Below are positions 43,040 to 61,014 of a DNA stretch of 64,000 nucleotides, piece by piece. The position numbers were made by a program, and so were the translations under genes. How positions within the stretch are numbered: the stretch's first letter is position 1; each line of letters starts with the position of its first letter. The stretch is from positions 1-64,000 of the forward strand of contig NZ_BBCJ01000026.1 in NCBI RefSeq assembly GCF_001311985.1. The letters run 5' to 3'. The notes under the pieces are model-generated. The model ran no database searches, had not been told where the DNA came from, and saw nothing but the letters and a program-made list of their open reading frames with translations. This DNA comes from Geotalea toluenoxydans JCM 15764. GTDB lineage: Bacteria > Desulfobacterota > Desulfuromonadia > Geobacterales > Geobacteraceae.

Positions 43040-43093
43040 ATTGCAAACATTCAATGGTCGAGCGAATTTCCAGGTTGTAAAGGGAGCATATTG

Positions 43094-46000
43094 ATGAGCG
43101 GACTTGGCTTTGCCGGCAGAATCGCCCGCGCCTTTATCGATTCGAAGCTGACGCCTTTGATTGTCGGTGCATCTTTGCTGCTGGGGCTTTATGCGGTTCT
43201 GGTTACCCCACGGGAGGAAGAGCCGCAGATCGTCGTGCCGATGATTGACATTTACCTGCCATGCCCGGTGCAACACCGCGGGAGGTGGAAGAGCGGGTCG
43301 TCAAGCCGATGGAAGCCAAGATGTGGGAAATCAAAGGGGTGGAATACATATACTCCGCCAGCAGGCCGGGCTTGGGCATTGTCACAGTCAGGTACAAAGT
43401 TGGCGAGGATATGGAAAACTCCCTAGTGAAACTGTACAACAAGGTGATGAGCAGCAAAGCTGCACTACCGCCTGGCGCAGGGGAACCGCAGGTGGCGCCT
43501 AAATCCATCGATGACGTACCTATCCTGACCCTTACCCTTTGGTCGGAACGCTATGATCATTACACCTTGCGCCGGGTCGCAAGGGAATTGTGCGATGAAC
43601 TGAAAAAGTCGGAGAACGTGGCGGAAAGCGACATAAAAGGGGGACAGGCCAGGCAGATAAAGGGTGCGGCTTGACCCGGGCAAGCTGGCCGCCCTCGGGT
43701 TGTCGCCGCTGCAGGTGATGGGGGCACTGCAGAAAGAGAACAGCGCGGTGCGCTCGGGCGCATTCTCAGGTATGAGCAAGGATTACCTGGTGGAGACAGG
43801 CACTTTCCTCGCTGGAGCAGATACGGTAAGGCGGATCGTTGTTGCCGCCAAAGCCGGCAGACCGGTCTATGTGGAAGATGTGGCAACGGTGGAGGATGGC
43901 CCGGAAGAAGCAAAGGACTACGTCTTCCATGGCCTGGGGCGATCAGCAGAGGGTGTGGAGAAGGCCAACAGAGCTGCCAGTTATCCGGCGGTCACTCTTT
44001 CCTTTGCCAAGCGCAAGGGGGCCAATGCCACCTGGGTTGCCGAAGACCTTGTAAAGAAGACGGAACTTCTCAAGGGAAAACTGATTCCTTCGGACGTGCA
44101 TGTTACTGTAACGCGGAATTACGGCGAGACGGCCAGGGAAAAGAATAATGAGCTGCTGTTCCATATGTTCCTGGCAGCATTTTCGGTAACCATTCTCATT
44201 GCGGTCTTCATGGGCTGGCGTGCAGGCGCCGTGGCCGCGATAGCCATACCTGTGACGCTGGCGCTGACCATGCTCATCTTCAACCAGATCGGTTATACAC
44301 TCAATCGCATCACCCTCTTTGCCTTGATATTTTCCATTGGTATTCTGGTGGATGACGCCATCGTTGTGGTGGAAAATATCCACCGCTACTTCACCACCAC
44401 CAGGTTTGCCCCGTTGGAAGCATCCATCAAGGCGGTTGACGAGATCGGCAACCCGACCATACTGGCGACTTTTGCCGTCATCGCCTCCATTTTGCCCATG
44501 GGCTTTGTCGGCGGTCTCATGGGGCCGTACATGCGCCCGATACCTGTCGGGGCAAGCATGGCCATGTTGTTTTCGCTGCTCATCGCCTTCATCGTAACCC
44601 CATATTTTGCCTACCGATTCATGAAGGGAGAATCCCACTTCGGCAGCGAGGAAGAGGTAAAGGAATCGCGTCTTACCCTTTTCTATCGACGGTTCATGGG
44701 AGACCTTCTCCATAAGAAAACGGTGCGCTACGTTTTTCTGACTGGCGTAGTAGTGCTGCTGCTTGCTTCCTGTTCGCTGATATATTTCAAGCTGGTTACC
44801 GTCAAGATGCTGCCCTTCGACAACAAGAACGAGCTGCAGGTGATCGTTGATGCTCCCGACGGCACGGCACTAGAGGAAACCGCCCGCATGCTGGCAGAGA
44901 TGGGGGATGCTTTACGCAATGTGCCGGAAGTGGTGGATTTCCAGACTTATGTCGGGGTCAGTTCCCCTTTCAACTTCAATGGCCTGGTTCGCCATTATTA
45001 CCTGCGCAAAGGTTCCAATGTGGGGGATATTCAGGTCAACCTGGTGCATAAATCCAAGCGAAGCGAGCAGTCCCATGATATTGCCAAAAAGATCAGGCCG
45101 GTTCTGAAAACAATAGCTGACCGCTATTCGGCAAGGTTGAAGGTGGCCGAAATCCCGCCGGGGCCGCCGGTTCTCTCAACATTGGTGGCTGAGGTATACG
45201 GACCGGATCAGGAGACGCGGCTGACGATTGCAGCCAGGTGAAGGAGATATTCCGGAAAACTGCCGGCGTGGTTGATACCGACTGGTACGTGGAGGATGAC
45301 CAGGCGAAGATAAGTTTCCAGGTTGACAAGGAGAAAGCTGCATTATCGGGCATTGCCACCGAAGACGTGGCAAAGACTCTGCAGATTGCACTGGATGGCA
45401 TGAATGCGGGCATCGCTCACCTGCCGAACGAAAAGGAGCCGGTGGGGATCAACCTGAGGCTGCCAGTTGAGCGGCGCAGTTCCATTGCTGACCTGTCGTT
45501 CATCCATATTGCAGGCACACATGGCAATGTGCCCCTGACTGAGCTGATCCGGGTGAAGAAAGGGGCAGAGGACAAATCCCTCTACCGGAAGAACCTGAAG
45601 AATGTGGTCTATGTTACCGGTGACGTGGCGGGGGTGGTGGAGGCGCCGGTGTATGCCATCTTGAAGATGCAGAAAGAAATAGATAAGATAGCCCTTCCGG
45701 GAGGGTACAAGATAGAGCAGCGGGCGGCAAGCCAGCCCTGGAGCGAGATCCGTCCAGGCCTCAAGTGGGACGGGGAGTGGCACATCACCTATGAAGTCTT
45801 CCGCGACCTTGGGTTGGCCTTTGCCGCGGTGATGGTCCTGATCTATGTGCTGGTCGTTGCCTGGTTCAAGGATTTTACCACCCCTCTGGTTATCATGGCC
45901 CCCATTCCGCTGACCCTGATCGGCATTTTGCCGGGTCATGCCATCATGGGCGCCTTCTTTACTGCTACCAGCATGATCGGCTTCATTGCCTGGCGGGAAT

Positions 46001-46301
46001 CATCGTCAGGAACTCGATCATTCTCATCGATTTCGCCGAACTGAGACGGCGCGAGGGTATGGCCCTCGATGAGGCAATTATAGATGCGGGAGCCGTCCGC
46101 TTCCGGCCGATGCTGCTCACCGCAGCAGCTGTTGTTATCGGCAGCTTCGTCATTGTTTTCGATCCTATTTTCCAAGGGCTGGCCCTGGCCATGATGTGCG
46201 GCGAAATTGCATCTACCGCCCTGTCCCGGGTGACCATACCCGTCCTGTATTTCCTGGTTCAGTCCTGGAAGGAAAAACGGCAGCAGAAATCTGCAGCCTG
46301 A
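43094..46301 (+). CDS. RND-family efflux pump inner membrane subunit
   Basis: About 1070 residues after repair. N-terminal [23 protein letters not shown]-type sequence (residues 36-58), the proton-relay Asp pair in [19 protein letters not shown], and TM clusters on both halves fit AcrB-like transporters. Four frame breaks at about 43262, 43663, 45235 and 45988 are explained by single-base changes (the second looks like one extra G); they re-join motifs such as [26 protein letters not shown]. Substrate cannot be told: I see no clear heavy-metal Met motif. Last gene of the pump operon, with C_GCAxxG 27 bases behind. Confidence 0.87.
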
Positions 46302-46328
46302 AATATCACAAAAAATCTGGAGGAATTG

Positions 46329-46766
46329 ATGTTTTGGTCAAAGCAAAAAAAAGATGAGATTGAGGTTGAAGGGGTGGTGGGCAAGGTGGCTGCAGAAGCT
46401 GAAGGTCTGTTCCGTTCCGGGAAAATGCATTGCGCCGAAGCTGTACTGGCGGCAATCCGAAGCAACTTCGCTCCGCAAATTCCTGAGGCGGTGGTGCGGA
46501 TGGCCTCAGGCTTTGGCGGTGGTTCCGGCTCCGGTTGCGTCTGCGGAGCCGTTGCCGGGGGAACCATTGCCCTTGCCCTTGTTCTGCAGGAGGATAAGAA
46601 GCAGATAAGCTCCCTGACAAAAGAGCTGCACAAGTGGTTCAAGGAACAGTACGGAGCGACCTGCTGCAAGGTGATAACACAAAAGGATAAAGGGGGCTGC
46701 CCTCTTCTTACCGGCAATGTGGCCGGCAAAGTGGCGGAAATGCTAAAGGTCACACAGGAAAAATAA
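46329..46766 (+). CDS. C_GCAxxG_C_C family redox-type protein
   Basis: 145 residues with the family pattern: an early Cys (KMHCAEAVL), then ASGFGGGSGSGCVCGAVAGG, then TCCKVI and GGCPLL. Members are small proteins with conserved Cys, often beside redox genes; function is not established, Fe-S or thiol chemistry is likely. ATG 46329 is used (a TTG three bases before is possible); GGAGG precedes it. It directly follows the RND pump gene and may be co-transcribed. Confidence 0.8.
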   Translation: MFWSKQKKDEIEVEGVVGKVAAEAEGLFRSGKMHCAEAVLAAIRSNFAPQIPEAVVRMASGFGGGSGSGCVCGAVAGGTIALALVLQEDKKQISSLTKELHKWFKEQYGATCCKVITQKDKGGCPLLTGNVAGKVAEMLKVTQEK

Positions 46767-46802
46767 TGTGCGGCAATTAAAAGAAGAAAAAGGAGTATAG
46801 AA

Positions 46803-47015
46803 ATGTATATCGATAGAATGCTCAGGCTGATTGCCGGATTTTTCGTCATGTTGTCAGTGGCAATGGCCCATCTTCATAGCATAAACTGGCTCTGGTTCAC
46901 CGCCTTTATCGGTCTCAATCTTTTTCAATCGGCCTTTACCAATTGGTGCCCGATGATGACTATTCTGGCGAAGGCCGGGGTGCCCAAGCTGCCACCCAGC
47001 TGTGGCTGTAAATGA
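46803..47015 (+). CDS. DUF2892 inner membrane protein
   Basis: 70 residues with two membrane helices ([15 protein letters not shown] and [17 protein letters not shown]) followed by [15 protein letters not shown] and a Cys-rich end SCGCK. This matches DUF2892, the membrane part found fused or adjacent to rhodaneses (YgaP type). AAGGAG precedes the ATG. Its stop overlaps the next start (ATGA). Confidence 0.85.
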
Positions 47016-47841
47016 AAGGGCGAATCACCGTTCTCTGCGACAATGGCGTCGGTCCACTGGCAGGTACTCTCGGGGAACACGGCTTTGCTGCCTGATCGAA
47101 ACGGCTTCGGGCTCGTTGCTTTTCGATACCGGGCAGGGAGCGACACTGCTCCATAACGCCCAGCGCATGCAGCGGGATCTGAGGAGCGTGGACAAGGTTG
47201 CCATATCCCATGGCCATTATGACCATACGGGCGGTCTTTGGCCATTGCTCCAGTGGTGCGGACCGAAAAGGGTCTACGGTCATGAGGGTATCTTTGCCGG
47301 TCGCTATACGCTGCGGGACGGGGAAAAGGGGCGCTCCATCGGCATGCCTTACAGCAGGGAGTTTCTGGAAGGGCAGGGGGCATCGTTTGATTTAAGTGCC
47401 TCCTTCAGGGAGATTGCGCCTGATATCTTTCTGACCGGAGAAGTCCCGCGAAAGCAGGCCTTTGAGCAGGGTGACACGGGACTGTTCTGCGATGCAGCGG
47501 GTTGCATCCCGGATCAGGTCCCGGACGACCAGTCACTGGTGCTGAAAACGGGCAAGGGGCTGGTGCTGGTGTTGGGCTGCTGCCATTCGGGAATGATAAA
47601 CACCCTGGAACTGGTCAGGGAACGAACAGGCGAGACCCGAATATGTGCGGTGATCGGCGGCAATCACCTGGGGTTCTCTTCACAGGCCCAGCTCAATGGG
47701 ACGGTGAAAATGCTCGGGACCTACGGGATCGAGAAGATATGCGGCAGCCATTGTGCCGGTTTTGCTGCATCAACCCGGCTGATGAAGGAATTTCCCGGAA
47801 AATTCCATCCGGCGCAGGTGGGATATACACTGGAAGTGTAA
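47012..47841 (+). CDS. MBL-fold metallohydrolase (COG1237 type)
   Basis: Metallo-beta-lactamase fold. Metal motif [11 protein letters not shown], then [20 protein letters not shown] and GSHCAGF, which fit the COG1237 subgroup named after a methanopterin-pathway enzyme; the real substrate here is unknown. ATG 47012 gives [20 protein letters not shown], but the frame breaks near 47086 (one base lost) before [17 protein letters not shown]. Restored length is about 277 residues. It overlaps DUF2892 by four bases. Confidence 0.82.
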
Positions 47842-47863
47842 TGAAAAACGAGGAGCTATCGGC

Positions 47864-48241
47864 ATGAGATTAACAGCAGTTGCATGTGCAATCGTGATCG
47901 TGTGGGCAACACTGGCCTTTGCCGCAGGAGAGAAGAACATCAGCTCGCGGGAGGCAAAAGGGCTGCTGAGTAAAGGGAAAAATGTTTTTCTCCTTGATGT
48001 GCGGACTCCGGACGAGTATCGCCAGGCCCATCTTCGGGGTGCGGTACTGATTCCGGTCAATGAGATAGAGCGGCGCCTTCGCGAGGTGCCGAAGAACAGG
48101 CCGGTGGTAGTTTATTGCGCTGTCGGTTCACGTTCGGGCATGGTTGCAGGATATCTGGCCGGCAAGGGGTACAGTGAGGTCTACAACATGAGCGACGGTA
48201 TCGTCGGCTGGTATCGGAGCGGATTTTCCATCGAGCATTGA
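47864..48241 (+). CDS. Exported rhodanese-like sulfurtransferase
   Basis: 125 residues. An N-terminal signal peptide (AVACAIVIVWATLAFAAG) predicts export to the periplasm. The rhodanese fold shows LLDVRTPDEYRQAHLRGAVLIPV and the active-site loop VVYCAVGSRSG with catalytic Cys. Typical single-domain length. GAGGAG lies upstream of ATG 47864. It is placed between the MBL hydrolase and the ArsR regulator, implying sulfane-sulfur handling. Confidence 0.88.
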   Translation: MRLTAVACAIVIVWATLAFAAGEKNISSREAKGLLSKGKNVFLLDVRTPDEYRQAHLRGAVLIPVNEIERRLREVPKNRPVVVYCAVGSRSGMVAGYLAGKGYSEVYNMSDGIVGWYRSGFSIEH

Positions 48242-48269
48242 AAATTGAGCTTCAAATCTTGAGGATGCG

Positions 48270-48575
48270 ATGACCGTAGAAGAACAGGCGCTGTTGATCA
48301 GAATACTTGGTCACCCGGTACGGCTCAGGATCGTGGCCGAACTGGCGGACCGGTGCGTCTGCGTCAAGGAAATGTGGCAGCACCTTTGTTTGCCCCAGGC
48401 AGTCGTGTCCCAGCATCTGAAGGTTCTGAAGGAGAGCGGAATAGTCACTGCCCGAAGGGAAGGAACAAGGGTCTGCTACTCATTGCAGGCTGAACTGATG
48501 GCGGAGCTGGTTACTGTCTTTTCGCCACGAAAGGTGCCAGCTCCGTGTGCATCCGGTCCGTCAGGGCGGCAATGA
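48270..48575 (+). CDS. ArsR-family transcriptional regulator
   Basis: 101 residues, winged helix. HPVRLRIVAELADRCVCVKEM includes a CVC motif (Cys29, Cys31) in the position of the ArsR metal-site helix; more Cys at about 40 and 69. Recognition helix region is PQAVVSQHLKVLKESGIV. It could sense a thiophilic metal(loid) or persulfide and probably controls the preceding cassette. Its end overlaps the convergent MCP gene by 65 bases, unusual enough that the last residues (RKVPAPCASGPSGRQ) may not be conserved. Confidence 0.8.
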   Translation: MTVEEQALLIRILGHPVRLRIVAELADRCVCVKEMWQHLCLPQAVVSQHLKVLKESGIVTARREGTRVCYSLQAELMAELVTVFSPRKVPAPCASGPSGRQ

Positions 48576-50208
48576 CCTTTATCTTTTTCATCATGTCCTC
48601 GGCCAGCATGCTGTTTGCTTCATTGAGCAGTCCGGCCTCTGTCACGTAATTCAACAGGACATCCCCCATCATGATCTGCTGTACAGCCGTTTCCTTGAGC
48701 TGCTTTACCCGATCGTTATCTTCCATGACGCTTTTCAGATAGAGGCGGTTGCCCCGTGACTGTTCCTGAGTCGAGTTTGAGATAAGAGCGGAAAAGGAGC
48801 GCATCTTGTCAAGGGCCCTTACGATCAGCCCGATTCCCCGTTTTTGCTCATGGATGGCGCCGGTAAATTGTTTGACCCGGTCCAGATTTTTTTCAGCCTC
48901 TTCCGTAATCATTTTGCTGGCGGCAGCCTGCTCGACGGTGGATGTGGCAATTTTCTGCACCATCTGCGATGCTTCCGCCGTCCCCTGGGCAATCTTTTCC
49001 AAGGCCGTGTTGGCAATGGCAGAAATCTTCACCCCATCCCTGATCCTGTCTTTCTCCTGGGAAATGGTTCTCTGCACCTCAGCGGTTTCCTTCTGAATAC
49101 TGGTTACCAGTTCCTGGATTTCCTTTGCCGAAAGGGAGGTTCTCTTGGCCAGGGACCTTACCTCTTCGGCGACCACACTGAAAGATTTGCCCTGTTCCCC
49201 GGCCTGGGCAGCAATTATGGATGCATTGAGGGAGAGGAGATTGGTCTGATCAACCACTTCCTTGATGACATTGAGAAATTCGCCAACCCTTGCCGAATGC
49301 ACCGAAAGCCGGTTGATGGCGGCAAATGAGTCGGCGTTGGTCTTTTCTATCTCCCTCATGGCTTTGAGGGTGGCGGCCATGGATTGCATGCCTTCCGTGG
49401 CTTTTTTCCGCATGTCTTCAGCGCACTCGCTGGTCCTTTGTGCATTGTCCCGGACATTGTTGTTAACGGCGCTTATCTCACTGATGGAACTGGAGGTCTG
49501 CTCGGTGGAAAGAGCCAGTGCCTCCACGTTGGTAGCCGTTTCATTTATGCTTGAGGCCATCTCCTCGATGGAGGCGGAAGTCTCCAGCACCGATGCCGTA
49601 AAGTCCTTGATATTGCCGGCGATCATATCGGTTGTCGCACTCATTTCGGCTGTGATGGACGCCCGCTCGTCCGTCCTCCGGGAAATATCCTCGATCTCCA
49701 GCAACAGATCATTGAAGAAGCCGTTCATGTCACGGACTGCCTGCAGGGTTTCCTTTTCCTTGGCGACCTGCTTTTCACCGCTTTGAACGATCTCCTTGGA
49801 CTGATCGCCTATTCCACGGTGATAGGAATTGATGTCCAGGGAAAGCGCGGCAACATTTTCCACCATCTTCAGCACTTTGCCGAGAAGGAGATCATGGCAC
49901 TCCAGGAGCAATTTCAGCTCGTCTCCCCCCTTACCTATTCTTTCCATTTCCTCTTGCCCGGCAATGGCACTAAGCGTGCGCCACTGGTTCTCCACATGGA
50001 TCTTCATCACCTGCTTGATAATGTAATAGCAGAACGTCCCCACGGCAATACCGGCCAACATGCAGCCGATGACGTACATGGGGGTGAATGCCCTTTTGCC
50101 GAAGAAAAGCCAGGAATAAAACGGAAAAATGATCCCCATGAACAGGCCGAAGCAGAGCATGAAGATGCAGGTGCTTTTCATCGAGGAAAGGTATTTTTTA
50201 AAGAACAT
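48511..50208 (-). CDS. Methyl-accepting chemotaxis protein without periplasmic domain
   Basis: 565 residues. Two membrane helices lie close together (residues about 13-35 and 43-65) with only a short loop between, so there is no periplasmic ligand domain. A long helical region follows, with the signalling hairpin tip AAQAGEQGKSFSVVAEEVRSLAKRTSLSAKEI. The C-terminus extends about 150 residues beyond with further coiled coil and ends TELAPFVAKRQ. It would send signals to CheA from cytoplasmic or membrane cues. Convergent with arsR, divergent from the histidine kinase. Confidence 0.9.
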   Translation of the reverse strand: MFFKKYLSSMKSTCIFMLCFGLFMGIIFPFYSWLFFGKRAFTPMYVIGCMLAGIAVGTFCYYIIKQVMKIHVENQWRTLSAIAGQEEMERIGKGGDELKLLLECHDLLLGKVLKMVENVAALSLDINSYHRGIGDQSKEIVQSGEKQVAKEKETLQAVRDMNGFFNDLLLEIEDISRRTDERASITAEMSATTDMIAGNIKDFTASVLETSASIEEMASSINETATNVEALALSTEQTSSSISEISAVNNNVRDNAQRTSECAEDMRKKATEGMQSMAATLKAMREIEKTNADSFAAINRLSVHSARVGEFLNVIKEVVDQTNLLSLNASIIAAQAGEQGKSFSVVAEEVRSLAKRTSLSAKEIQELVTSIQKETAEVQRTISQEKDRIRDGVKISAIANTALEKIAQGTAEASQMVQKIATSTVEQAAASKMITEEAEKNLDRVKQFTGAIHEQKRGIGLIVRALDKMRSFSALISNSTQEQSRGNRLYLKSVMEDNDRVKQLKETAVQQIMMGDVLLNYVTEAGLLNEANSMLAEDMMKKIKVIAALTDRMHTELAPFVAKRQ

Positions 50209-50386
50209 AAATGCCCACCATGTAAGGGTTTTTTTATATCAAAAGCAAGAATGATACCTATCATGGGGAAGAATAGCTGTCAAACGAAATAGCGTTCTTT
50301 GCCATTGGAGAATGGCAGGTCTTGAACTGGCGGCAGTCCGCTATTAATTATTCAAGCTCTCCCCGCAAATCCCGATAAGCATAATC

Positions 50387-51437
50387 ATGCAAAAGACGGT
50401 AGCACACCAAAAAACGGCACCGGACATGGCCTCGATCGCAGAAAGCATCATCGCCAGCCAGAGCACCGGCATCATCTATCTGGACGGCGACGGCAGGATA
50501 GCCCTGATCAATGCCAGGGCAGAGGCAATGTTGCATACTTCTGCCGGTGATGTCACAGGCAAAAGGGTGGACATGTTGCCACTACGGACACCTGTCTACA
50601 GGGTACTGAGCGAAAACTGCCGTGAGATGCCGGTGGAGGTGAGTGTCAACGGTGCCGTATTGACCGCCAGATCAGCGGAAGTGCGAATTCCCTCCGGAGA
50701 GTTGTCGGGAGAAATATACGAACTGTTTGATGTGACAGAAGAAAAGAAGGAAAAGAGGCATCGGGAAGAAATCGTCGCATGATGACCCATGACCTGAAAT
50801 CTCCCCTGACCGTACTGATGGGCTATGTACAGGCCTTGAGAAACGAAGATGGGGCAAAGGTGCATGTCTCGCTGCTGCCGTGTCTGGATGAAATGGACCG
50901 AAGCTCTCTGAAACTACTGGCCATGATCGAGGACGTGCTGGATGCATACCGTCTGGAAGTGGGGCTGCTGCAGACCACGTGCAGCTGGTGCGATCTTTCC
51001 GCCATACTGGAGGCGTGCTGCATGATATGGCCCGTGAGGCTTCGTCACGGGGGGTACGGTTAACCCACGATATCGAAAGTGGTATTCCTGCGATGAACGT
51101 GGATGGTAATCAGCTTTCCCGTGTCTTTGCCAATCTCATCGGCAATGCGGTCAAATTCACCCCCCGCAAGGGTCAGGTGACGGTCAATGCATGGCTGGGG
51201 GATGAAAAGCTGCATGTATCGGTAACGGACACAGGGATAGGCATTCCCCAGAAAGACCTGCCCCGTATCTTCAATAAGTATTTTCGTTCAAAAGGCGCCA
51301 ATGGCTTCAGGGGGACAGGTCTTGGCCTGACCATCAGCAAGGCCATCGTCGAGGCCCATGGCGGGGCCATCGCCGTCGAGAGTGCCGTTGGCGAAGGGAG
51401 CTGCTTTACCATCGTCATTCCTTGCAGCGCTGCCTAA
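50387..51437 (+). CDS. PAS-domain histidine kinase
   Basis: Soluble sensor kinase of about 350 residues after repair. PAS: SIIASQSTGIIYLDGDGRIALINARAEAML. HisKA H-box: MMTHDLKSPLTVLMGYVQAL. ATPase: N-box NLIGNAVKFTPR, G1 VTDTGIGIP, F/G2 GFRGTGLGLTISKAIVEAHGG. Two lost bases break it: near 50778 (VAMMTHDLK expected) and near 51011 (EGVLHDMAREAS expected). No membrane segment, so it senses a cytoplasmic cue. The ribosome site before ATG 50387 is poor; ATG 50426 is an alternative. Confidence 0.85.
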
Positions 51438-51494
51438 AGTTTTTCACTGTGGGCGCCGAATATAAGAATCATCGACTACTATTTTGGAGGAAAC

Positions 51495-51903
51495 ATGTCT
51501 CTCATCACCTGGAATCAAAGCCTCAGTGTCAATGTAAAGCAGTTCGACGAGCAGCACAAAAAAATTGATCGACCTCATCAACAAGCTTCATGACGCCATG
51601 AAAGCGGGCAAGGGAAAGGATGTGCTGGGGGAGATCCTGCAATCACTGGTGGATTACACAAAACAACATTTTGCCGCAGAGGAGTCATTGCTGCAGAAGC
51701 ACGGCTACGGTGACTACGAAAAACACAAAAAAGAGCACAACCTGCTGGTAATGCAGGTGGCTGATATCCAGAAAAAGCTTAAGGAAGGAAACCCGGTGTT
51801 GACCCAGACGGTGATGACATTCCTCAAGGACTGGCTTTCCAACCACATCCAGAGAGAGGACCAAAAATACGGTCCCTTCCTTAATGACAAGGGGCTTTCC
51901 TGA
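51495..51903 (+). CDS. Bacteriohemerythrin
   Basis: Di-iron O2-binding four-helix protein of about 135 residues. Ligand motifs: LSVNVKQFDEQHKKLIDLIN, HFAAEESLLQKHGYGDYEKHKKEH and SNHIQREDQKYGPFL. Near 51565 the A-run has one A too many, which shifts the start from the rest; with six A the gene is continuous. GGAGG lies before ATG 51495. It lies between a PAS kinase and the CheY-CheX genes, consistent with oxygen-linked behaviour. Confidence 0.92.
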
Positions 51904-51980
51904 CGGTAATCGGAGCAGACTCTAATATTTCAAAAAATTGACAGGCACCCTGAGGGGTACCAGGCAGAGGAGGATGGGTT

Positions 51981-52343
51981 ATGGCAAATGTATTGATTGT
52001 GGACGATTCTTCAACAATGAGGAAAATTATTTCCCGTTCGTTGCGGCAGGCAGGTCTGGTCGTCGATGACATTTTCGAGGCGGGCGACGGCATCGAAGGA
52101 CTCAGCGTGCTGGGAGAGAAAAAGGTCGATCTGATTCTCTCCGACATCAACATGCCCAACATGGACGGCCTCGAGTTCATCAAGCAGGTGCGGGCAAGCG
52201 GCAAGCAAATACCGATTGTCATGATCACCACCGAGGGGGGAGAGGATGTGCTGAAAGATGCCATGTCCAGCGGCGCCAGCGACAGCATCAAGAAGCCGTT
52301 CACTCCGGAACAGCTCAATGAAAAATTGGGAGGGCTGCTGTGA
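51981..52343 (+). CDS. CheY-like single-domain response regulator
   Basis: 120 residues: LIVDDSSTMRKII (acid pocket), phosphoacceptor Asp in LILSDINMPNMDGLEF, Thr in VMITTEGG, Lys in IKKPFTPEQL. All activation residues of CheY are present. The linked CheX-type gene suggests this CheY is dephosphorylated by it. AGAGGAGG precedes the ATG. The stop overlaps the next start. Confidence 0.93.
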   Translation: MANVLIVDDSSTMRKIISRSLRQAGLVVDDIFEAGDGIEGLSVLGEKKVDLILSDINMPNMDGLEFIKQVRASGKQIPIVMITTEGGEDVLKDAMSSGASDSIKKPFTPEQLNEKLGGLL

Positions 52344-52849
52344 TGACACTCAATAGCGCTGTTTCCAAGGCAGTCAACATGCAGGAAGAAGACCTGGCAG
52401 GGTATGTCATCCATGCCACCAAGGAAGTGTTCAATACCATGGTCATGCTTGACCTGGAGGATTCTTACCCTCTGCGGGAGCCGGTTACCACCTTCCATTG
52501 CAGCGTAACCGGCATGGTCGGCCTGGCCGGCACCTATACCGGCATCCTTTCCATCCATTGCCCGAAGGCCTTTGCCTTGCGCATCACCTCCAACATGCTG
52601 GGGATGGATGTGGCGGATGTGGGAGAGGATGTGAACGATGCCCTGGGAGAGATTGCCAACATGCTGGGGGGGTATGTGAAGCAGATCCTTTCCAAGGGGG
52701 GACTTGACATCAATCTTTCCATTCCGACCGTTATTTCGGGTGAAGAGTATACAGTCAATTCCATGTCCGATGATAATTGTGTCATCATTCCCTTCACCAA
52801 CGAAGGAGAGCGGTTTCTGGTGGCGTTGAAGCTGCGCAAGGAAGGTTAA
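52343..52849 (+). CDS. CheX-type chemotaxis phosphatase-like protein
   Basis: 168 residues. The helix DALGEIANMLGGYVKQ carries the D-x3-E-x2-N phosphatase motif of the CheC/CheX/FliY family, and the flanking strand HCSVTGMVGLAGTYTGILSIHC is typical of CheX. One such motif is present, as in CheX. ATG 52343 shares a base with the cheY stop; a GTG at 52340 is possible. It should act on CheY-P from the preceding gene. Confidence 0.85.
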   Translation: MTLNSAVSKAVNMQEEDLAGYVIHATKEVFNTMVMLDLEDSYPLREPVTTFHCSVTGMVGLAGTYTGILSIHCPKAFALRITSNMLGMDVADVGEDVNDALGEIANMLGGYVKQILSKGGLDINLSIPTVISGEEYTVNSMSDDNCVIIPFTNEGERFLVALKLRKEG

Positions 52850-52862
52850 GGCAGGATCTACT

Positions 52863-53893
52863 ATGGCAGGATTCGAAAAATTACAGGAGATGCTCGATGC
52901 CGCACTGAAGCAGGCGGGGGAAGAGAGCAGCATGCTCCTCGGGGTGACCCTCTCCTCTGGCGATTCCGACATCATAAACACCAACCGCAAAAGTTACTTC
53001 GCCGATATGGACGACGCAGTTTTTGTTGTTGCGGTCGAATCCAAGGAGGAATATCAGGGTTACTTTTACCTGCTCTTTTCCCTTGGCGATGCCATCGTCA
53101 TGAGCAGCATCCTTTTAGGCATTCCGGCTCCCCGCATTGCGGAAAAACGCAGGCTGTGCATCATGGAGGCAGACGACATCGATGCTTTCGGTGAAATTGC
53201 CAACCAGATCATCGGCTCGTTCAACTCTGTTTTTCAGCCGAAATTGCCCCAGAAGGTACACCTGAAACTGCTGCCCCCGCCAAAAAAATATATTCCGGAG
53301 ATAGATCAGCTCACGGATGCCGAGCCGCTGCCCGATAGTGACTATCTTATGTATCGGGCGCCCCTTGAGATAGAAGGACAGGAGATGCACTATCTGGATA
53401 TCATGGTGCCTCCGGAACTGGCCAATCTCTTTGATCCGCAACCGGAAGAAAAAGCGGCGGCAGCTTCGCCGGAGGCCGCCACCAAGCAGAAGCCGGCGAA
53501 GCCGATGCCGAAAGCGCTCCCCGTACCCAGTCCATCCTTATTCTTAGTGAGGATGTCGACGAGCGGCAGACGGTCAGGGAGTACCTGACCGCCACCGGCT
53601 TTGACCTGGTGGATGCCCCTCTGGGCGCCGATCTCCATGAGCTGCTCAAGGAAACCGAGGTCAGGGTGGCGGTAATCGAGGTGAATGAAACGGGAGAACG
53701 TGACCTGGCGGTATGCAACAGGGTGTGTGCCCAGAGCAGCAAGGCTTCCCTCCCCATCATCATGTGTGCCGGGCAATGGACCAGGACTGCGGTGCTCAAG
53801 GCACTTACCTACGGGGCCAGCGACATCCTCATGAAGCCTTTCGATGCCGATGAACTGATGGCCAAGGTACAAAAGTACCTGCATGCCGCGTGA
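52863..53893 (+). CDS. CheC/CheX-like domain fused to a pseudo-receiver domain
   Basis: About 343 residues after repair. Residues 1-190: CheC-like domain with DAFGEIANQIIGSFNSVF (D-x3-E-x2-N). A low-complexity Ala/Pro/Lys linker follows (EEKAAAASPEAATKQKPAK). The C-terminal 115 residues are a receiver-like domain: ILILSEDVDERQ, then AVIEVNETGE where the phosphoacceptor Asp would be (Glu instead), IIMCAGQW and LMKPFDADEL with the conserved Lys. The break near 53530 is one lost base in the linker. Adjacent to CheY and CheX, 13 bases downstream. Confidence 0.75.
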
Positions 53894-54057
53894 AACGCGT
53901 CAATAAATATTCAGCAATCATTGTTTTTTTTGACCCCTTGTCTCTGCCATTTATCTTAAGCCCCTCCAGGCCTGCTGCCAGCAAGCATTTCGCTGACGGC
54001 ACGCCTTTTGCCATAGTTGGCTGTCGATCATTCTCCAATACCGGATAACCACTACCG

Positions 54058-56182
54058 ATGAAATTTGCCGGTCCCTTCAAGCATACTGGGCTGCCCCTTG
54101 CCCTTTATTTCTGCCGCTGCCTGGCCGGGGCGGGCCTGCTCATCCTTTGCCTCTTGGATGCAGCCGAGGCAACGGCCCAAGAACTCGCCCGCTTGCAACG
54201 GGTGGAGGTCGGTCAACAGGTTTCGTCGACCCGTCTTGACCTGAAGCTCGATCAAGCAACAACTTACACTGTGGCGGAGTCGGCGAACAGGATCCGCCTC
54301 ACCCTCAAGGACACCGACGGACCTCTCTTCAGAAAATTAAATACCTATATCGATTCCCATATCTCCGGCATCCGCTTCTCCCAGAGGGGCAAAGACCTGC
54401 AGATAACCATCGGCACCAGGGACGCCGCTCCCTGCCTGCGCATCATGGATCTGGCTGAAGGAATTCTGACTGTCAATGTGGGCAAGGAGAAGGGACCGGC
54501 TGTACCGGCCATCGTTCCGGGGAGGGAACTGATACTGCATGGGACGGCCAGGCTAGTGACCGACTTCGATCCACCGCTCAAGGCCGAGATACCCTTTGTT
54601 CCCACCGACGGCTCAGCTGCAGAAGGTGGCTGTTGATGGGGAGGTAAAACTATTCCAGCGCGGGGAGAGTTTTCTCTATAAGGAGATGGGGGCTGAGGCA
54701 GCAGAGATCTTCGCCTGGTTTACCGGCAGAGACACTCCTCTGCGGCCGCTGGCCTGCTATCGCCTGGGGGAGTCCCTTTACCTGCTCGGCAAATATGACG
54801 CAGCCCTCAAGGCTTTCAGGGAGGGAGAGCAGCGCTGGCCCGCCTATATGGCTTTCAATCCTGCCACGACCTTTTACTTTGCCGACAGCATCGCCAGGAT
54901 GGGAAACCTTGCCGATGGGCGCAAGATGCTGGCCCGCCTCATCGCCCAACTGGCGGAAAAGACTTACGCGCCGCTTCTGCTTGATCGACTGGCGGACATT
55001 CTGGCCCGGAACGGCCGGGATAAAGAGGCTGTCGCCATATTCGGAACGATTGCCGAAGGTTTTCCGGAAACCGAGGCCGCTTATCACGCTCTGTTGAAAC
55101 TTGCCGACAGACGCCTGTTTTCCGTAAGCGCCGATACCTACCAGCCACTGGCAGAGCAATACCGGTCCATCCACAGAGCCGCAGGCGCTGTTTCCCTCAG
55201 GGACGATGCCAATTTCAAGGCGGCATTGATCGAATCCCTGTATGGCCAGGCAGGTAAGGCACTGGCAGCGGTCATTCAATATGAAAAGCAATATCCGCAG
55301 GGAACTTTTGTGACCATTGCCCATAGCATGCGCCAGGAACTGCTGCTGCGTGTATATCTTGAAATGTACAGGGCAAAGAACTATCCGGGCTTGGTCGACC
55401 TGGCCCAGCAGAATCGCGACTATCTTGCCCGCTGTTTCAGCGATGAAATGTTCATCCACCGCCTTGCCGAGGCCTTTTCCCATTTGCAGAAGCCGGCGGG
55501 AAAGGTGGAGCTGTTCAATCATCTTGCCGAGCGTGACTGGACGGAAGGGGCGGCCCCCTTTATTTACGGGCAGATTGTCGATACGTCCATGGCCATGGGC
55601 AATCTGGCCATGGCAGACCTGACGGCCGCCAATTTCCTGCGTCGGTTCCCAAACCACTCGGATTACCGGCACATGCTGGAGCATCGGGGAGAAATCGCCT
55701 TTCTGAAGAAAAACCTGCCGGGGGTGGTGGCGGAACTTTCCTGGCTGACAAAGCCGAAGGAAAAGGCTGCCCAGCTGAACAGTTATTATTACCTGGGCAA
55801 GGCACTTACGGCGCAGAAGGATTACAAAAGGGGAGAGAGGGTGCTGGGGCAATATGTCGATGGCCTGTCCCAATCGAAAGCCTCTTCCACATTTGCCGGT
55901 GATGCCTATTTCACCCTCGGCACCGCCCGCAGAGGAATGGGGGACCATCGGGGGGCGATGGCCGCCTATGTTGCCGGTCTTGAAGTAGCTGGCGGCGGAA
56001 TGAAGGAACAGTTCCTGTTTGCCATGGGAGAGCTGGAGCTGCAGATGAAAAACTATGGGGAGGCCAAGGGCCACTGGAACAGGATACTCAAGGAAGGAAC
56101 GGACCCGGTTTGGCGCCGCATGGCCGAGCAGGGACTGGGCGACCTGCAATGGAAGGAAAAAATGGAGACATTAACCCGGTAA
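54058..56182 (+). CDS. Exported AMIN-like and TPR protein upstream of the flagellar operon
   Basis: About 708 residues after repair. Residues 1-42 hold a signal peptide or anchor (LAGAGLLILCLLDAAEATA). Residues 43-150 (VEVGQQVSSTRLDLKLDQA, NRIRLTLKDTDG, ISGIRFSQRGKDLQI) look like an AMIN beta-domain used for envelope localisation. The rest is a chain of TPR-like helices (GESLYLLGKYDAALKAFREG, YLGKALTAQKDYKRGERVLG, MGELELQMKNYGEAKGHW). One base lost near 54612 divides it. It ends 142 bases before flgB. It may scaffold the motor or cell wall; no direct evidence. Confidence 0.7.
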
Positions 56183-56279
56183 GTCAAATTAATGACATTG
56201 GTCAAAATAGAAAGTGCTGATTTTGGGAACCAGGGGTTACGGTGTGGGTAAACTGCTTGTAATTATTGGATAAAATGTC

Positions 56280-56295
56280 TGGTATGGGTTTTGCT
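56280..56295 (+). promoter_or_regulatory. Sigma-54 type promoter of the flgB operon
   Basis: TGGTATGGGTTTTGCT keeps the invariant GG (-24) and GC (-12) with correct spacing and matches the consensus TGGCAC-N5-TTGCW at 9 of 11 fixed positions (T, T instead of C, C at the fourth and sixth). Transcription would start near 56306, 18 bases before the flgB ATG, with AAAGGAG in between. Flagellar class II genes in this lineage are commonly RpoN-dependent. Confidence 0.65.
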
Positions 56296-56323
56296 CAGTC
56301 AGCTGTTGGGAAAGGAGTCTGTT

Positions 56324-56746
56324 ATGCCTGTAGATGGAATATTTAGTTCCACCGTGGATATTTTGGGTAAATCCCTCGACTTGAGGGCGAAAAATCATAA
56401 TCACATTTCGGCCAATGTTGCCAATGCCGAAACTCCCGGTTACATGCCGACCCGGCTCTCCTTCGAATCGGAACTGAAGGACGCGGTCAAGGGTAATGGG
56501 ATTAGCAAGGGCGCCGTCACCCACCCGCGTCACATACCCCTCAAAGGCAAGGGGGGATCTGTCGAGGATGTGACCGGGACGGTGGTCGAGACCCCGGCCA
56601 AATCGGTGGGGGTGGACAATAACGCCGTCGAGCTGGAAAACGAGATGGGCAAAATGGCGGAGAACCAGATCATGTACAACGCCAGCGTACAACTCCTGGG
56701 TAAAAAGTTCGAAGGACTCAAGTACGCGATAAAAGGGGGTAACTGA
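56324..56746 (+). CDS. flgB: Flagellar basal-body rod protein FlgB
   Basis: Proximal rod subunit, 140 residues. N-terminal helix with LDLRAKNHNHISANVANAETPGYMP (rod protein signature ANVANAxTPGY) and C-terminal helix ENQIMYNASVQLLGKKFEGLKYAI. ATG 56324 (MPVDGIFSS) is well placed after AAAGGAG. First gene after the sigma-54 promoter; its stop overlaps the flgC start. Confidence 0.95.
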   Translation: MPVDGIFSSTVDILGKSLDLRAKNHNHISANVANAETPGYMPTRLSFESELKDAVKGNGISKGAVTHPRHIPLKGKGGSVEDVTGTVVETPAKSVGVDNNAVELENEMGKMAENQIMYNASVQLLGKKFEGLKYAIKGGN

Positions 56747-57186
56747 TGGATTTTTTCACCTCGATGGACATAAGTGCCTCGGCCCTTACCGCCGAAAGAA
56801 CACGCATGAATCTCATCTCCAGCAACCTGGCCAATGCCGGGTCCACCAGGACTGCCGAGGGGGGACCCTACAAGCGCAAGGATGCCGTTTTTGCCGCTGA
56901 ACCAGTTGTCGAACCGTTCAGCTCGGTGCTGAAGAAGGCGGGAGGGAGTATGGAGCCGAAGCAGGTGGGAGTGGTGCAGATCACCGAGGACCAGACGCCG
57001 CCACGCCTGCAGTACGATCCGACCCATCCCGATGCCGATGCCAAGGGTTATGTGGCCCTGCCCAATGTCAACGTGGTGGAAGAAATGGCCGATATGATTG
57101 CCGCCACCCGCACCTATGAAGCAAACGTCACTGCAGCCCAGGCAGCGAAGAGCATGGCGTTGAAAACCCTGGAGCTCGGCCGATGA
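56746..57186 (+). CDS. flgC: Flagellar basal-body rod protein FlgC
   Basis: 146 residues. FFTSMDISASALTAERTRMNLISSNLANAGSTRT and the C-terminal GYVALPNVNVVEEMADMIAATRTYEANV are diagnostic of FlgC (only landmarks given; residues 3-35 and 103-128). The start shares a base with the flgB stop. Intact. Confidence 0.96.
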   Translation: MDFFTSMDISASALTAERTRMNLISSNLANAGSTRTAEGGPYKRKDAVFAAEPVVEPFSSVLKKAGGSMEPKQVGVVQITEDQTPPRLQYDPTHPDADAKGYVALPNVNVVEEMADMIAATRTYEANVTAAQAAKSMALKTLELGR

Positions 57187-57304
57187 TTTACGCTGAAAAA
57201 CATTCATCTGCGGCGTTGCCTTCATTACTTTGCTGCTCGTAACTTGGCGCCTTGCACCTGGATATTTTCGAGCATGAATCATAAACAATTTTACGGAGGA
57301 AAAG

Positions 57305-57613
57305 ATGGTTATCAAAGCGATCGAGAGTGGTACCGGGATTGAGCATGCCTTTCCCTCGCCGGTGGCAAAGGAAACAGCCGGCGCGGCGCCTGCCGAGAGC
57401 TTCAGCAAGTATCTGGGGGAAATGGTCGGCAAGGTAAACGACATGCAGCTGTCGGCCGATAAATCCATCCAAAGCTTGGCCACAGGCGAAGCCACAGGCC
57501 TGCACGAGGTAATGCTGGCCGTGGAAAAGGCGAGCATTTCTTTCCAGTTTCTCAATCAGGTGCGCAACAAGGCAGTAGAAGCCTATCAGGAAGTCATGAG
57601 GATGCCGGTTTAA
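57305..57613 (+). CDS. fliE: Flagellar hook-basal body complex protein FliE
   Basis: 102 residues. The C-terminal signature LHEVMLAVEKASISFQFLNQVRNKAVEAYQEVMRM (residues 66-100) matches FliE, which joins the MS ring to the rod. GGAGGA precedes the ATG. The 118 bases between flgC and fliE have no gene and no strong terminator. Confidence 0.95.
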   Translation: MVIKAIESGTGIEHAFPSPVAKETAGAAPAESFSKYLGEMVGKVNDMQLSADKSIQSLATGEATGLHEVMLAVEKASISFQFLNQVRNKAVEAYQEVMRMPV

Positions 57614-57661
57614 CAGCCTGATATTCGTCGTAGATGCATTGTCAGTTGATACGGAGTTCCT

Positions 57662-59228
57662 ATGCCGGAAGGTTTGAAAAAACTGCTTGATCCTTTCCTG
57701 TCTCTGCCCACGTCCAAACGCCTGATTGTGGCCGGGGTGGCGGCTTGTTCGCTCTTGGCCTTCGCTGCTCTTATTTTTGTCGCCAACAGGACCGATTACC
57801 GCCCGCTGTTTGCCAACCTTACAACCGAAGATGCCGGTGAGATCGTCAAGAAACTGAAGGATCAGAAGGTTGCCTACCAGATTTCGGCGGACGGCAAAGC
57901 CATTCTCGTCCCATCTGACAAGGTGTATGAACTGCGTCTTTCCCTGGCCGGCGAAGGGCTGCCCCAGGGGGGAGGAATAGGTTTCGAGATCTTCGACCGG
58001 AAGAATTTCGGCATGACCGAATTTGTCCAGAAGCTCAATTATCAGCGTGCCCTGCAGGGTGAACTCTCCCGGACCATTGCCCAGTTGGCAGGTGTGGAGC
58101 AGGCAAGGGTCCACCTGGTTATTCCGGAAAAATCCCTGTTCAAGGACAGCGAAAAGCCCCCCACTGCCTCTGTGGTTCTGAAGATGAAATCAAACCGCAC
58201 CCTGCGTGAAAATGAAGTACAGGGGGTGGTGCACCTGGTCTCCTCCGCCATCGAGGGGATGGATACGGAGAACGTCACCGTTCTTGACAGCCGCGGCAAG
58301 GTCCTGAGCAGGACCGGCCCTTCCGATGCTACCGGCAAACTGACCAGCACCATGCAGGAGACCCAGCGCAATTACGAAAAAAACCTGGAAGAGCGTCTGC
58401 AGTCGCTTCTGGACAAAGTCGTGGGGAGCGGCAGATCTGTAGCCCGGGTCTCGGCTACCTTCGATTTCAAGCAGGTGGAGAAATACGAAGAGAAATACGA
58501 TCCGGAAACGGCAGCGGTACGCAGCGAACAACGGAGTGAGGAAAAGGCGGGAGCACCAACATTGCTGCCGGTGTTCCGGGGGTGCAAACAAATATGGGCA
58601 GGACCCCTCCGGGGTCAGGCACCACCGGTGGCGGTTCCAAGAGTGACGAAACCCTCAATTACGAAGTCAGCCGTACCACCGCCCGCATCATCGAACCGGT
58701 CGGCAGCTTGACCAAGGTGTCGGTGGCCATTCTTGTGGACGGCAAGTATGAAGCCCCGGCAGCTGCTAAAGCGGGTGCTGCCAAGGCCAAGTACCAGCCG
58801 CGCACTCCCGATGAATTGCAGAAAATCGAGTCACTGGTTAAAAGCTCCGTCGCTTCAATGCCGAACGGGGCGATCAGGTGACGGTTGCCAATATTCCGTT
58901 TCAGGAAACCGGCGATATGGGAAGTGCCCAGGATGCCTGGTGGAATGCGCCGATCGTCATGACCCTGCTGAAGAACCTGCTCATTGCCGGCGGTTTCTTC
59001 GCCATCATTTTCTTTGTCATCAAGCCGCTGATGCGGATGTTGCCCCATAGACCTCCTTCCTTCCAGCCTGTGCAGGAAGATTTGGAGATGATCCAGTTGA
59101 ACGAGGCCCACAAGCAGGAAATGGCCCTGCAGACACTGAACCAGCTAGAGTTGATCGAAAAGGTGAAGCAGGACCCCTATCAGGTTGCCCAGATTCTCCA
59201 GAACTGGCTGGTACACAAAGAACAGTAG
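57662..59228 (+). CDS. fliF: Flagellar MS-ring protein FliF
   Basis: About 523 residues after repair. First membrane helix VAGVAACSLLAFAALIFVA, then the ring-building motifs TDYRPLFANLTTEDAGEIV and PSDKVYELRLSLAGEGLP, FVQKLNYQRALQGELSRTI and VHLVIPEKSLF. Second membrane helix LLIAGGFFAIIFFVIKPL before the FliG-binding tail. Breaks near 58567 (a lost C) and 58852 (a lost G) rejoin GVPGVQTNMGRTPP and FNAERGDQVTVANIPF. Secreted into the inner membrane to form the MS ring. Confidence 0.94.
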
Positions 59229-59241
59229 TTGAGGATGTTTC

Positions 59242-60233
59242 ATGACCGGATCGGATAAAGCCGCCATCCTGCTCCTCTACCTTGGCCCGGACGCAACGAG
59301 CAAGATATTCGAGCACATGGATGATGTGGACATAAAGAAGATAAGCCAGAGCATGGCCCGTCTCGGTCACGTGCCGCGCGACGTCATTCAGGGCGTGGTG
59401 ACGGAATTCACGGATATCACCAATCCCGAAACCGGTTTTTTTCCCAGGGGGAGGAATTCGTCAAGAAGATCCTGGAAAAGGCCCTAGGCGTGCAAAAGGC
59501 CGAAAGCCTCCTTCAGGAGCTACGCACCTCAAGTATCGGCGATATGGTGGACATTCTCGCCACCATGGATTCGAAGACCATCGCCAACTTTTTTTCCCAG
59601 GAGCACCCACAGACCATTGCCGTCATCCTGGCCAAGCTCAAGCCGAAGCAGACCAGTGAAATTGTCGGGCTCCTGCCCCAGGAGCTTCAGGCCGAGGTGG
59701 TGATCCGCATCGCCGAGGTTGACCAGGTATCGCCGGAAATCCTGGCCGAAATCGACGAGGTTATCCGCAAGGAGCTGACGGCCCTTGGCGGCGTGCAACG
59801 GTTCAAGGTCGGCGGCGTGGAGAAGGTGGTGGACATGTTCTCCTATCTGGATCGGAGCAAGGAGAAAAAGATCCTCGACCGTCTGGATGCGCTCAATCCG
59901 CCCCTGGCCGAAGTTATCCGCAAGCATCTCTTCACCTTCGAGGACATCTTCAAGCTGGACGACCGGGCCATCCAGTCGATCATGCGGGAGGTGAGCAACG
60001 ATACCCTGACCCTGGCCATGAAAACCTCCCCGGACGACGTCAAGGACAAGATCTTCCGCAACATCTCGTCCCGTGCCGCCGAGATGATCAAGGAGGACCT
60101 GGAGGTGATGGGGCCGGTTCGCCTTTCCGACGTGGAAAAGGCCCAGTCGGAGATCATCAAGGTGGTAAGGAAAATGGAGGAAGACGGCAAGGTGGTCATC
60201 GCCGGCCGCGGAGGCGACGATGTCCTCGTCTAA
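59242..60233 (+). CDS. fliG: Flagellar motor switch protein FliG
   Basis: About 331 residues after repair. N-terminal GSDKAAILLLYLGPDA, middle EHPQTIAVILAKLKP (EHPQ motif), C-terminal torque domain RAIQSIMREVSNDTLTLAMK and RAAEMIKEDLEVMGPVRLSDVE. The break near 59442 is a lost T in a T-run (FFSQGEEFVKKILEKAL expected). FliG links the MS ring to stator torque. It overlaps fliH. Confidence 0.95.
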
Positions 60234-61014
60234 GATCATCAAATCCATCGACGATGCCGGCTTCATGGGTTTCCACTTCCGTGAGTTAAAGGGGAGTGCT
60301 GACGAGCCCCCTGCTGCAGACAACCATAATGCTCCTTTCACTCCGGTAATACCGGGGGCCGGGGCTGCTGCGGACAAAGAGGAAGTGGCAGGGAACGCTG
60401 AAGAGGATACGGCCGGCGCAGTAGAAGAAAAGATTGTTGTCGGCATTCCCGAGGAAGAGGCCGACCGGCGCGAACAGGCGGCATACAATGAGGGGCTTCG
60501 TGAAGGCAAACGCCAGGCGGAAGAGTCTTTGGCCAAGGTAAGCGAGGCGCTGGCCAAGGCACTACTCAGTACCGGAGGCCTCCGGCAGAAGGTGATGCAG
60601 GAGAGCGAGGAAGACCTGCTTAAGCTGGCCATTGTCATTGCCCGCAAGATCATCCTTCAGGAAATATCCATCGACCGCAGAATCCTGGTCAATATTGTGA
60701 AGGCTGCAGTCAGCAATGTCTCGGACGGTGATGAGGTAGTGGTAAGGCTCAGTCCGTCGGATTATGAAATAGTTGCCGACCATAGGGAATTTCTGCCGCC
60801 TGCCAACGAGAAAAGAAGGATCACCCTGAAAGCCGATGAAACCATACCCGGTGGGGGCTGTCTGGTGGAGACTTCCATGGGGGCCATAGATGCCAGGATA
60901 GAAGCCCAGCTGGATGAGATATTCCGTCGCTTCATGGAGGATCGCAGTGTGACGGCACTTGAAGCCGACACGATGGAAACGGAGGGAAAGACGGATGCTG
61001 GCGAAGAAGATTGA
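60220..61014 (+). CDS. fliH: Flagellar assembly protein FliH
   Basis: 264 residues, regulator of the export ATPase FliI. An acidic, Ala-rich N-terminal half with coiled coil (REGKRQAEESLAKVSEALAKA) is followed by the conserved C-terminal domain (DLLKLAIVIARKIILQEISID, VVRLSPSDYEIV, GGCLVETSMGAIDARIEAQLDEI). ATG 60220 lies within the fliG end, a 14-base overlap. Intact; overlaps fliI by 20 bases. Confidence 0.9.
   Translation: MSSSKIIKSIDDAGFMGFHFRELKGSADEPPAADNHNAPFTPVIPGAGAAADKEEVAGNAEEDTAGAVEEKIVVGIPEEEADRREQAAYNEGLREGKRQAEESLAKVSEALAKALLSTGGLRQKVMQESEEDLLKLAIVIARKIILQEISIDRRILVNIVKAAVSNVSDGDEVVVRLSPSDYEIVADHREFLPPANEKRRITLKADETIPGGGCLVETSMGAIDARIEAQLDEIFRRFMEDRSVTALEADTMETEGKTDAGEED

Follow-up and report, generated by a model that had tools for sequence, protein, structure and literature searches.

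A predicted FliY-type phosphatase domain joined to a pseudo-receiver in the flagellar gene cluster of Geotalea toluenoxydans

The locus and its reading frame

The window (the whole stretch of DNA that was analysed, 64,000 nucleotides of Geotalea toluenoxydans JCM 15764, contig NZ_BBCJ01000026.1) comes from a draft genome that is 84% complete and in 77 contigs. On its forward strand, a cheY gene encoding a protein with the canonical Asp acceptor (51981..52343; Pfam/NCBIfam) and a gene for the CheX phosphatase proper (52340..52849; Pfam CheX, 94.5 bits), with no second CheX match in this 84%-complete genome, are followed by a gene for two fused domains. Its parts, all on the same strand, are an N-terminal FliY/CheC-superfamily domain of about 192 amino acids (the N domain; 52863..53438), recognised from its ORF, a weak Pfam CheX score and fold and profile matches to 4hyn; a linker (53439..53530), disordered in the model of an orthologue; and a pseudo-receiver domain (53531..53893, stop codon included, in the frame of 53609), recognised from a Pfam Response_reg match and from the receiver fold of the orthologue model. 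The gene order is conserved as cheY-cheX-[fusion gene]-AMIN-TPR-flgB-flgC-fliF. In 80 named loci, the upstream neighbours found were cheY in 75 and cheX in 78 (at least one cheX lying some 5.6 kb away), and the downstream ones AMIN and TPR in 80, flgB and flgC in 75, and fliF in 73, with the contigs of some loci (for example, L158 and L170) too short to hold every neighbour. A bacteriohemerythrin gene (51565-51903) sits between a histidine kinase gene and cheY in the window and has a match in just 5 of the 80 named loci.

The original prediction placed both domains in a single ORF at 52863-53893, a description that fits the relatives but not this assembly, in which the two halves lie in different frames. 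According to the ORF list of the window, the CheC-superfamily ORF runs from 52863 to 53588, with its tail beyond the frame break out of frame, and the receiver half reads in the frame of 53609. Alignment with the genome G003, which is 97.1% identical over 14 kb, puts the break near 53486, where the window is one G shorter. The N domain was found in 45 of the 58 genomes searched, the window's own included, and both domains share a single ORF of 333–368 residues in all 44 of the other genomes; a programmed frameshift was ruled out, since 44 of 44 relatives need none. Of the 16 indels that separate the window from G003 over the 14 kb, 14 shift the frame, and several of these lie within genes that G003 has intact (histidine kinase, AMIN-TPR and FliF); the frame break in the fusion gene is therefore likely to be an assembly error. 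The rival view, that a real frameshift has broken the window's gene and left a pseudogene, would account for the two domains being in different frames here, but it is improbable in light of these same indels and of the N half and the receiver half each still being 98% identical to G003. The Ala/Pro/Lys linker that had also been described proved to be mostly out-of-frame translation: it is rich in Lys and Pro because the residues past the frame break come from the wrong frame (KQKPAKPMPKALPVPSPS is out-of-frame), whereas the orthologous linker (L054) reads AATKAEAGDADTESAPRTQ and orthologous linkers are rich in Ala, Glu and Asp.

The indels relative to G003 span positions 46305-60296 of the window and are mostly a single missing base, and they account for the split appearance of the histidine kinase, AMIN-TPR and FliF genes. 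By eye, the likely RND efflux pump (43091-46044) and FliI (60959-62322) genes are also broken into several ORFs.

A receiver domain without the phosphorylation site

Translation in the frame of 53609 gives, for the receiver half, ...VRVAVIEVNETGE... and ...PIIMCAGQWTR...LMKPF. It matches Pfam Response_reg (PF00072) with 46 bits against a cut-off of 30.2 (E = 6.8e-12), and receiver structures match the AlphaFold model of orthologue L096 with Z of about 16. The canonical set of PF00072 residues is incomplete: the acceptor Asp and the conserved Thr are absent, and the first acidic position is Ser in the window. As originally predicted, the codon opposite the acceptor Asp (53678..53680) encodes Glu, Ala stands at the position of the conserved Thr (53768..53770), and the conserved Lys (53834..53836) is kept. 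The acidic pocket, said to be intact, retains an acidic residue (Glu) at one position but has Ser at the other. The domain thus scores as a receiver and lacks the phosphotransfer residues, which is how the available text of a recent review defines a pseudo-receiver (PMC12632262). Two residues after the Lys (K+2), the window has Phe, a residue that biases CheY toward inactive forms according to the available text of the same review (Bourret et al. 2025, PMC12632262).

These features extend across the family. We collected 100 distinct members (80 named loci and 44 relatives, minus 24 identical sequences) and aligned them together with six longer distant proteins using L-INS-i. The acceptor column holds Gly in 74 members, Ser in 10, Thr in 5, Glu in 4, Phe, Tyr and Cys in 2 each, and Ala in 1, with Val in five and Ile in one of the distant proteins; Asp occurs there in 0 of the 106 aligned sequences, so that no homologue with an acceptor Asp was found among them. 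Across the 100 members, the conserved-Thr column is Ala in 97 and Ser in 3, the Y/F switch position (three before the Lys) is Ile in 85 and Val in 15, the second acidic position is Asp in 93, Glu in 4, Asn in 2 and Ala in 1, and the Lys itself is kept in 77. As a control, upstream CheY-like ORFs were recovered from 61 of the 80 loci, and all 61 carry the acceptor Asp and the Thr; the filter that recovered them selected for an acidic pair close to the start and Lys-Pro close to the end, so that the control is independent for the acceptor and Thr columns alone. Judged by these alignments, the receiver half is a pseudo-receiver across the whole fusion family, and the core of the original prediction, a receiver unable to be phosphorylated in the usual way and joined to a CheC-family domain, is borne out. 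The acceptor Glu is found in L053 (genome G002), L054 (G003), L096 (Geotalea sp. SG265), L097 (Geobacter sp. MAG) and the window, all from the window's genus, and it maps to one change on a quick tree that carried a long-branch warning. As the column reads, this Glu is best explained as drift within a site that was already dead.

The register at the acceptor site rests on several methods in agreement, with some dissent. BLASTP against the neighbouring CheY places the Glu opposite the acceptor Asp with no gap at the site, as do the HMMER alignments that reach it, made with solved receivers including ArcA and PleD D1. Both L-INS-i alignments put the Glu in the acceptor column without a gap there, the site is ungapped in those family-profile alignments against the PDB that were displayed, and in the L096 model the Glu is residue 272, the final residue of strand b3 (265-272). 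Dissent came from MAFFT --auto with the 61 CheY controls, which gapped the acceptor site in 80 of 80 rows, and from hhalign, which also placed a gap there. In a crude pairwise alignment, 21 of the 80 rows extended to the site, with G 7, L 4, D 3, E 2 and five others.

The receiver half is maintained by purifying selection, most strongly around helix 4, as indicated by low dN/dS together with low entropy in that region. Between G003 and L096, dN/dS is about 0.06 for the N domain, 0.10 for the receiver half and 0.34 for the linker, and the receiver half stays at about 0.02–0.11 in all eight pairs compared (this pair and seven more). Mean entropy, computed over 60 of the 80 named sequences for the elements of the L096 model, is 0.41 bits for helix 4, lower than for any other element of the receiver half, 0.83 for b4, 1.08 for helix 3 and 1.13 for b5, and reaches 2.26 for helix 1, 1.73 for helix 5 and 2.75 for the linker. 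An invariant Trp-Thr-Arg (WTR; 53777..53785) closes the b4-a4 loop and opens helix 4, three residues after the Thr position in the alignment. All 106 sequences carry it; the same columns are Gly-Gly-Glu in 61 of 61 upstream CheY proteins. Members with Gly, Ser, Thr, Ala, Cys, Phe or Tyr at the acceptor retain both WTR and the phosphatase signature of the N domain, and members with a non-Glu acceptor have mostly the same gene neighbours. This pattern suggests a possible docking face around helix 4, although b5, at 1.13 bits, is conserved to about the same degree as helix 3, at 1.08.

Among solved structures, the first-listed PDB match of a 60-row profile of the receiver half was PleD, with its best stretch in D2 (E = 6.8e-12), itself a pseudo-receiver that shows no acceptor Asp in that alignment, and this first match shifts with the query, to H. 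pylori CheY with a 19-row profile and to ArcA with the window's domain alone. PleD D2 differs from the receiver half in serving as an adaptor in a diguanylate cyclase, and the alignment matches just the Arg of WTR.

The N-terminal domain and its flagellar context

The N half had been described as CheC-like. The superfamily is correct, but both fold and profile place the domain closer to FliY than to CheC or CheX. Its Pfam CheX score (PF13690) is 18.3 bits, under the cut-off of 27, and the NCBIfam FliY models fall far under their cut-offs (NF006272, 13.4 of 219 bits; NF005995, 12.2 of 218). The AlphaFold model of L096, which took 60 of the 80 named sequences as input, has a mean pLDDT of 89.6, with linker residues 197-218 disordered (pLDDT < 50), and a pTM of 0.59, so that it does not predict the domain arrangement. 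The best structural match of its N domain is Thermotoga maritima FliY (4hyn; Z = 21.7, 2.4 Å over 183 residues), with FliM middle domains at Z = 16.9–19.9 and CheC at 16.8. Foldseek likewise ranks FliY first (E = 2.9e-12), with CheC at 1.5e-10 and CheX at 1.1e-7 (rank 16), and a profile of 22 N domains has FliY 4hyn as its sole credible match in the PDB (E = 0.0057). Fold matches are nonetheless insufficient as proof of what the N domain does. FliM has the same fold as CheC-type phosphatases, yet it is not known to act as a phosphatase; its middle domain carries a FliG-binding GGxG motif, and it also has a SpoA domain. Neither half of the window protein has a Pfam match to SpoA, and in the region of the FliG-binding motif it has ILLGIPAPR against ILGGVGVPN in its own FliM, so that by eye the FliM-type motif is absent.

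The signature of CheC, CheX and FliY, (D/S)-x3-E-x2-N, sits on the active helix. In the fusion it reads D-x3-E-x2-N (DAFGEIAN in the window, 53181..53204) and occurs in all 44 relatives and all 100 distinct members, and a longer stretch, E-x2-N-Q-x2-G-S, aligns between the N domain and FliY 4hyn. A Pro 20–24 residues after the signature is absent in 3 of the 44 relatives, and columns 9 and 12, which lie opposite the first active site of FliY as we read the alignment, vary in the family. The fusion therefore resembles the FliY of T. maritima and Bacillus subtilis, a CheC-type phosphatase domain with a SpoA/FliN domain, in its N domain (best structural and only credible profile match) and in its flagellar gene cluster, but it has a pseudo-receiver where SpoA stands, does not conserve the first active site and misses the NCBIfam cut-off. 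With CheX and CheC it shares the superfamily and the signature, but it scores under the Pfam CheX cut-off, has a fold nearer to FliY and lies directly downstream of a genuine cheX.

The fusion gene is linked to the flagellum. A search with the N domain (query P0002) in 141 genomes of the order found both the domain and FliM in 113 and neither in 23; the five exceptions (N domain alone in G390; FliM alone in G021, G367, G379 and G418) are all less than 90% complete. Among the 103 good genomes there was no exception, with both in 85 and neither in 18. Fisher's test gives p = 2.6e-21 for the 141 genomes and 1.8e-20 for the 103, uncorrected for relatedness and with positives listed in full but a few negatives assigned by elimination. 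The genera g15, g17, g19, g22 and g220 mix both states, and gene and FliM co-vary within them save in G390 and G379 (both g17). Where present, the N domain occurs as one copy per genome, a second row for G003 being an out-of-frame overlap. Such co-occurrence is expected for any gene of a flagellar cluster and does not by itself indicate binding to the switch. The window's genome also encodes a short SpoA protein resembling FliN and an ordinary FliM, whose first residues, MEKILTKEEIEALL, are like the peptide by which FliM binds CheY.

Outside the order, at least six of 297 genomes of the phylum hold relatives among the matches listed (L182-L187; best E < 1e-20). These are ORFs of 610–647 residues with two FliY/CheX-like domains and one WTR pseudo-receiver; cheY and two copies of cheX adjoin in five of the six, and flgB-flgC lies within the same 18 kb in three. 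In four of the six, a sigma54-type regulator gene was seen by eye on the opposite strand. A search of viral contigs with the window's N domain found no relative.

Proposed function and its alternatives

We propose that the fusion is a flagellum-dedicated predicted CheY-P phosphatase of Geobacter-like bacteria in which a pseudo-receiver, in place of the SpoA domain of FliY, forms a putative phosphorylation-independent docking module, a reading to which we give an even chance. Given the intact active-site motif, one per N domain, the FliY-type domain would most likely dephosphorylate CheY-P. A flexible linker would tether it to the pseudo-receiver. This domain, unable to take a phosphoryl group, would instead be available for docking at all times, by way of the conserved helix 4 region that starts with Trp-Thr-Arg. 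Because the pseudo-receiver occupies the place of FliY's rotor-binding SpoA domain, its likeliest role would be to keep the enzyme at either the motor switch or the chemosensory machinery, which is the weakest step of the proposal. A stricter version, in which the protein is a variant FliY whose SpoA was replaced by a dead receiver and whose WTR face permanently parks the CheY-P phosphatase at the motor switch, is less likely than not. With a true CheX encoded next door, a second phosphatase may be redundant.

According to the original prediction, the Glu may mimic phospho-Asp, and the receiver could be locked on and permanently engage a target or the CheC domain. Glu does occupy the acceptor position in the window's genus, the Lys is retained, and Glu is described as imitating phosphorylation in some response regulators in the available text of PMC12632262. 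However, it is found in only 4 of 100 members, from one origin, against 74 with Gly, and on this count the phosphomimic was rejected as the mechanism. Moreover, no member keeps the Thr that it would engage (Ala or Ser throughout the 100) or an aromatic residue at the Y/F switch position (always Ile or Val), and K+2 is Phe in the window, so that we regard this explanation as highly improbable. An auto-inhibitory arrangement, in which the pseudo-receiver would cover the CheC-type active site as an internal pseudo-substrate until displaced by CheY-P or a motor protein, is consistent with a receiver-like domain flexibly tethered to a domain that probably has a receiver as substrate, and with the two halves being conserved together; the model offers no fixed interface (pTM 0.59), which is weak evidence against it, and we consider it unlikely.

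No likelier is the view that the CheC-type domain is catalytically idle and binds CheY or the rotor without hydrolysis, in an assembly or phosphate-independent scaffold role. The adjacent CheX already provides a phosphatase, FliM middle domains match the fold nearly as well as FliY (Z up to 19.9), and FliY proteins without phosphatase active sites, coexisting with FliN, are reported for Campylobacter and Helicobacter in the available text of PMC6946799. Yet all 100 members keep the signature D-x3-E-x2-N unchanged, as expected if the site is used.

The docking proposal can be set beside other fusions and pseudo-receivers. Like the CheV-type and CheA-Y fusions, the protein joins a receiver to a chemotaxis domain. 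The receivers of CheV-type and CheA-Y proteins are thought to be phosphorylated, whereas that of the fusion has no acceptor Asp. FrzS of Myxococcus xanthus docks to SgmX independently of phosphorylation via an a3-b4-a4 face (PMC12632262, available text), and this face, compared by its description, overlaps the most conserved region of the fusion's receiver half. Unlike the fusion, FrzS has a coiled-coil partner domain and acts with type IV pili, docking to SgmX (PMC11580455, available text).

The switching of bacterial pseudo-receivers is called a mystery in the available text of a recent review (PMC12632262), in which the terms CheC and CheX are absent; CheC, CheX and FliY are likewise absent from the main text of a survey of aspartate-less receivers (PMC4395418). 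Surveys of Geobacter chemotaxis count a few cheX and cheC genes per genome, and their available text makes no mention of the fusion (PMC2577667, PMC8396549). We found no description of it in the literature consulted. The family offers a clean pseudo-receiver case: it occurs once per genome where present, its operon is conserved, it goes strictly with the flagellum, its three-residue motif does not vary, and swimming can be scored as a countable phenotype. It would add another CheY-P phosphatase layout beside FliY, CheC, CheX and CheZ and, if the docking proposal is true, a receiver would have ceased to carry the signal and become the fixed anchor of the very enzyme that erases it.

Docking of the pseudo-receiver to the adjacent TPR protein, by analogy with FrzS and SgmX, was considered and rejected: by eye, the AMIN-TPR protein has a signal-like hydrophobic N terminus, so that it probably lies outside the cytoplasm. 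The gene for this protein occupies 54058-56182 in the window and is one ORF of 712 residues in G003.
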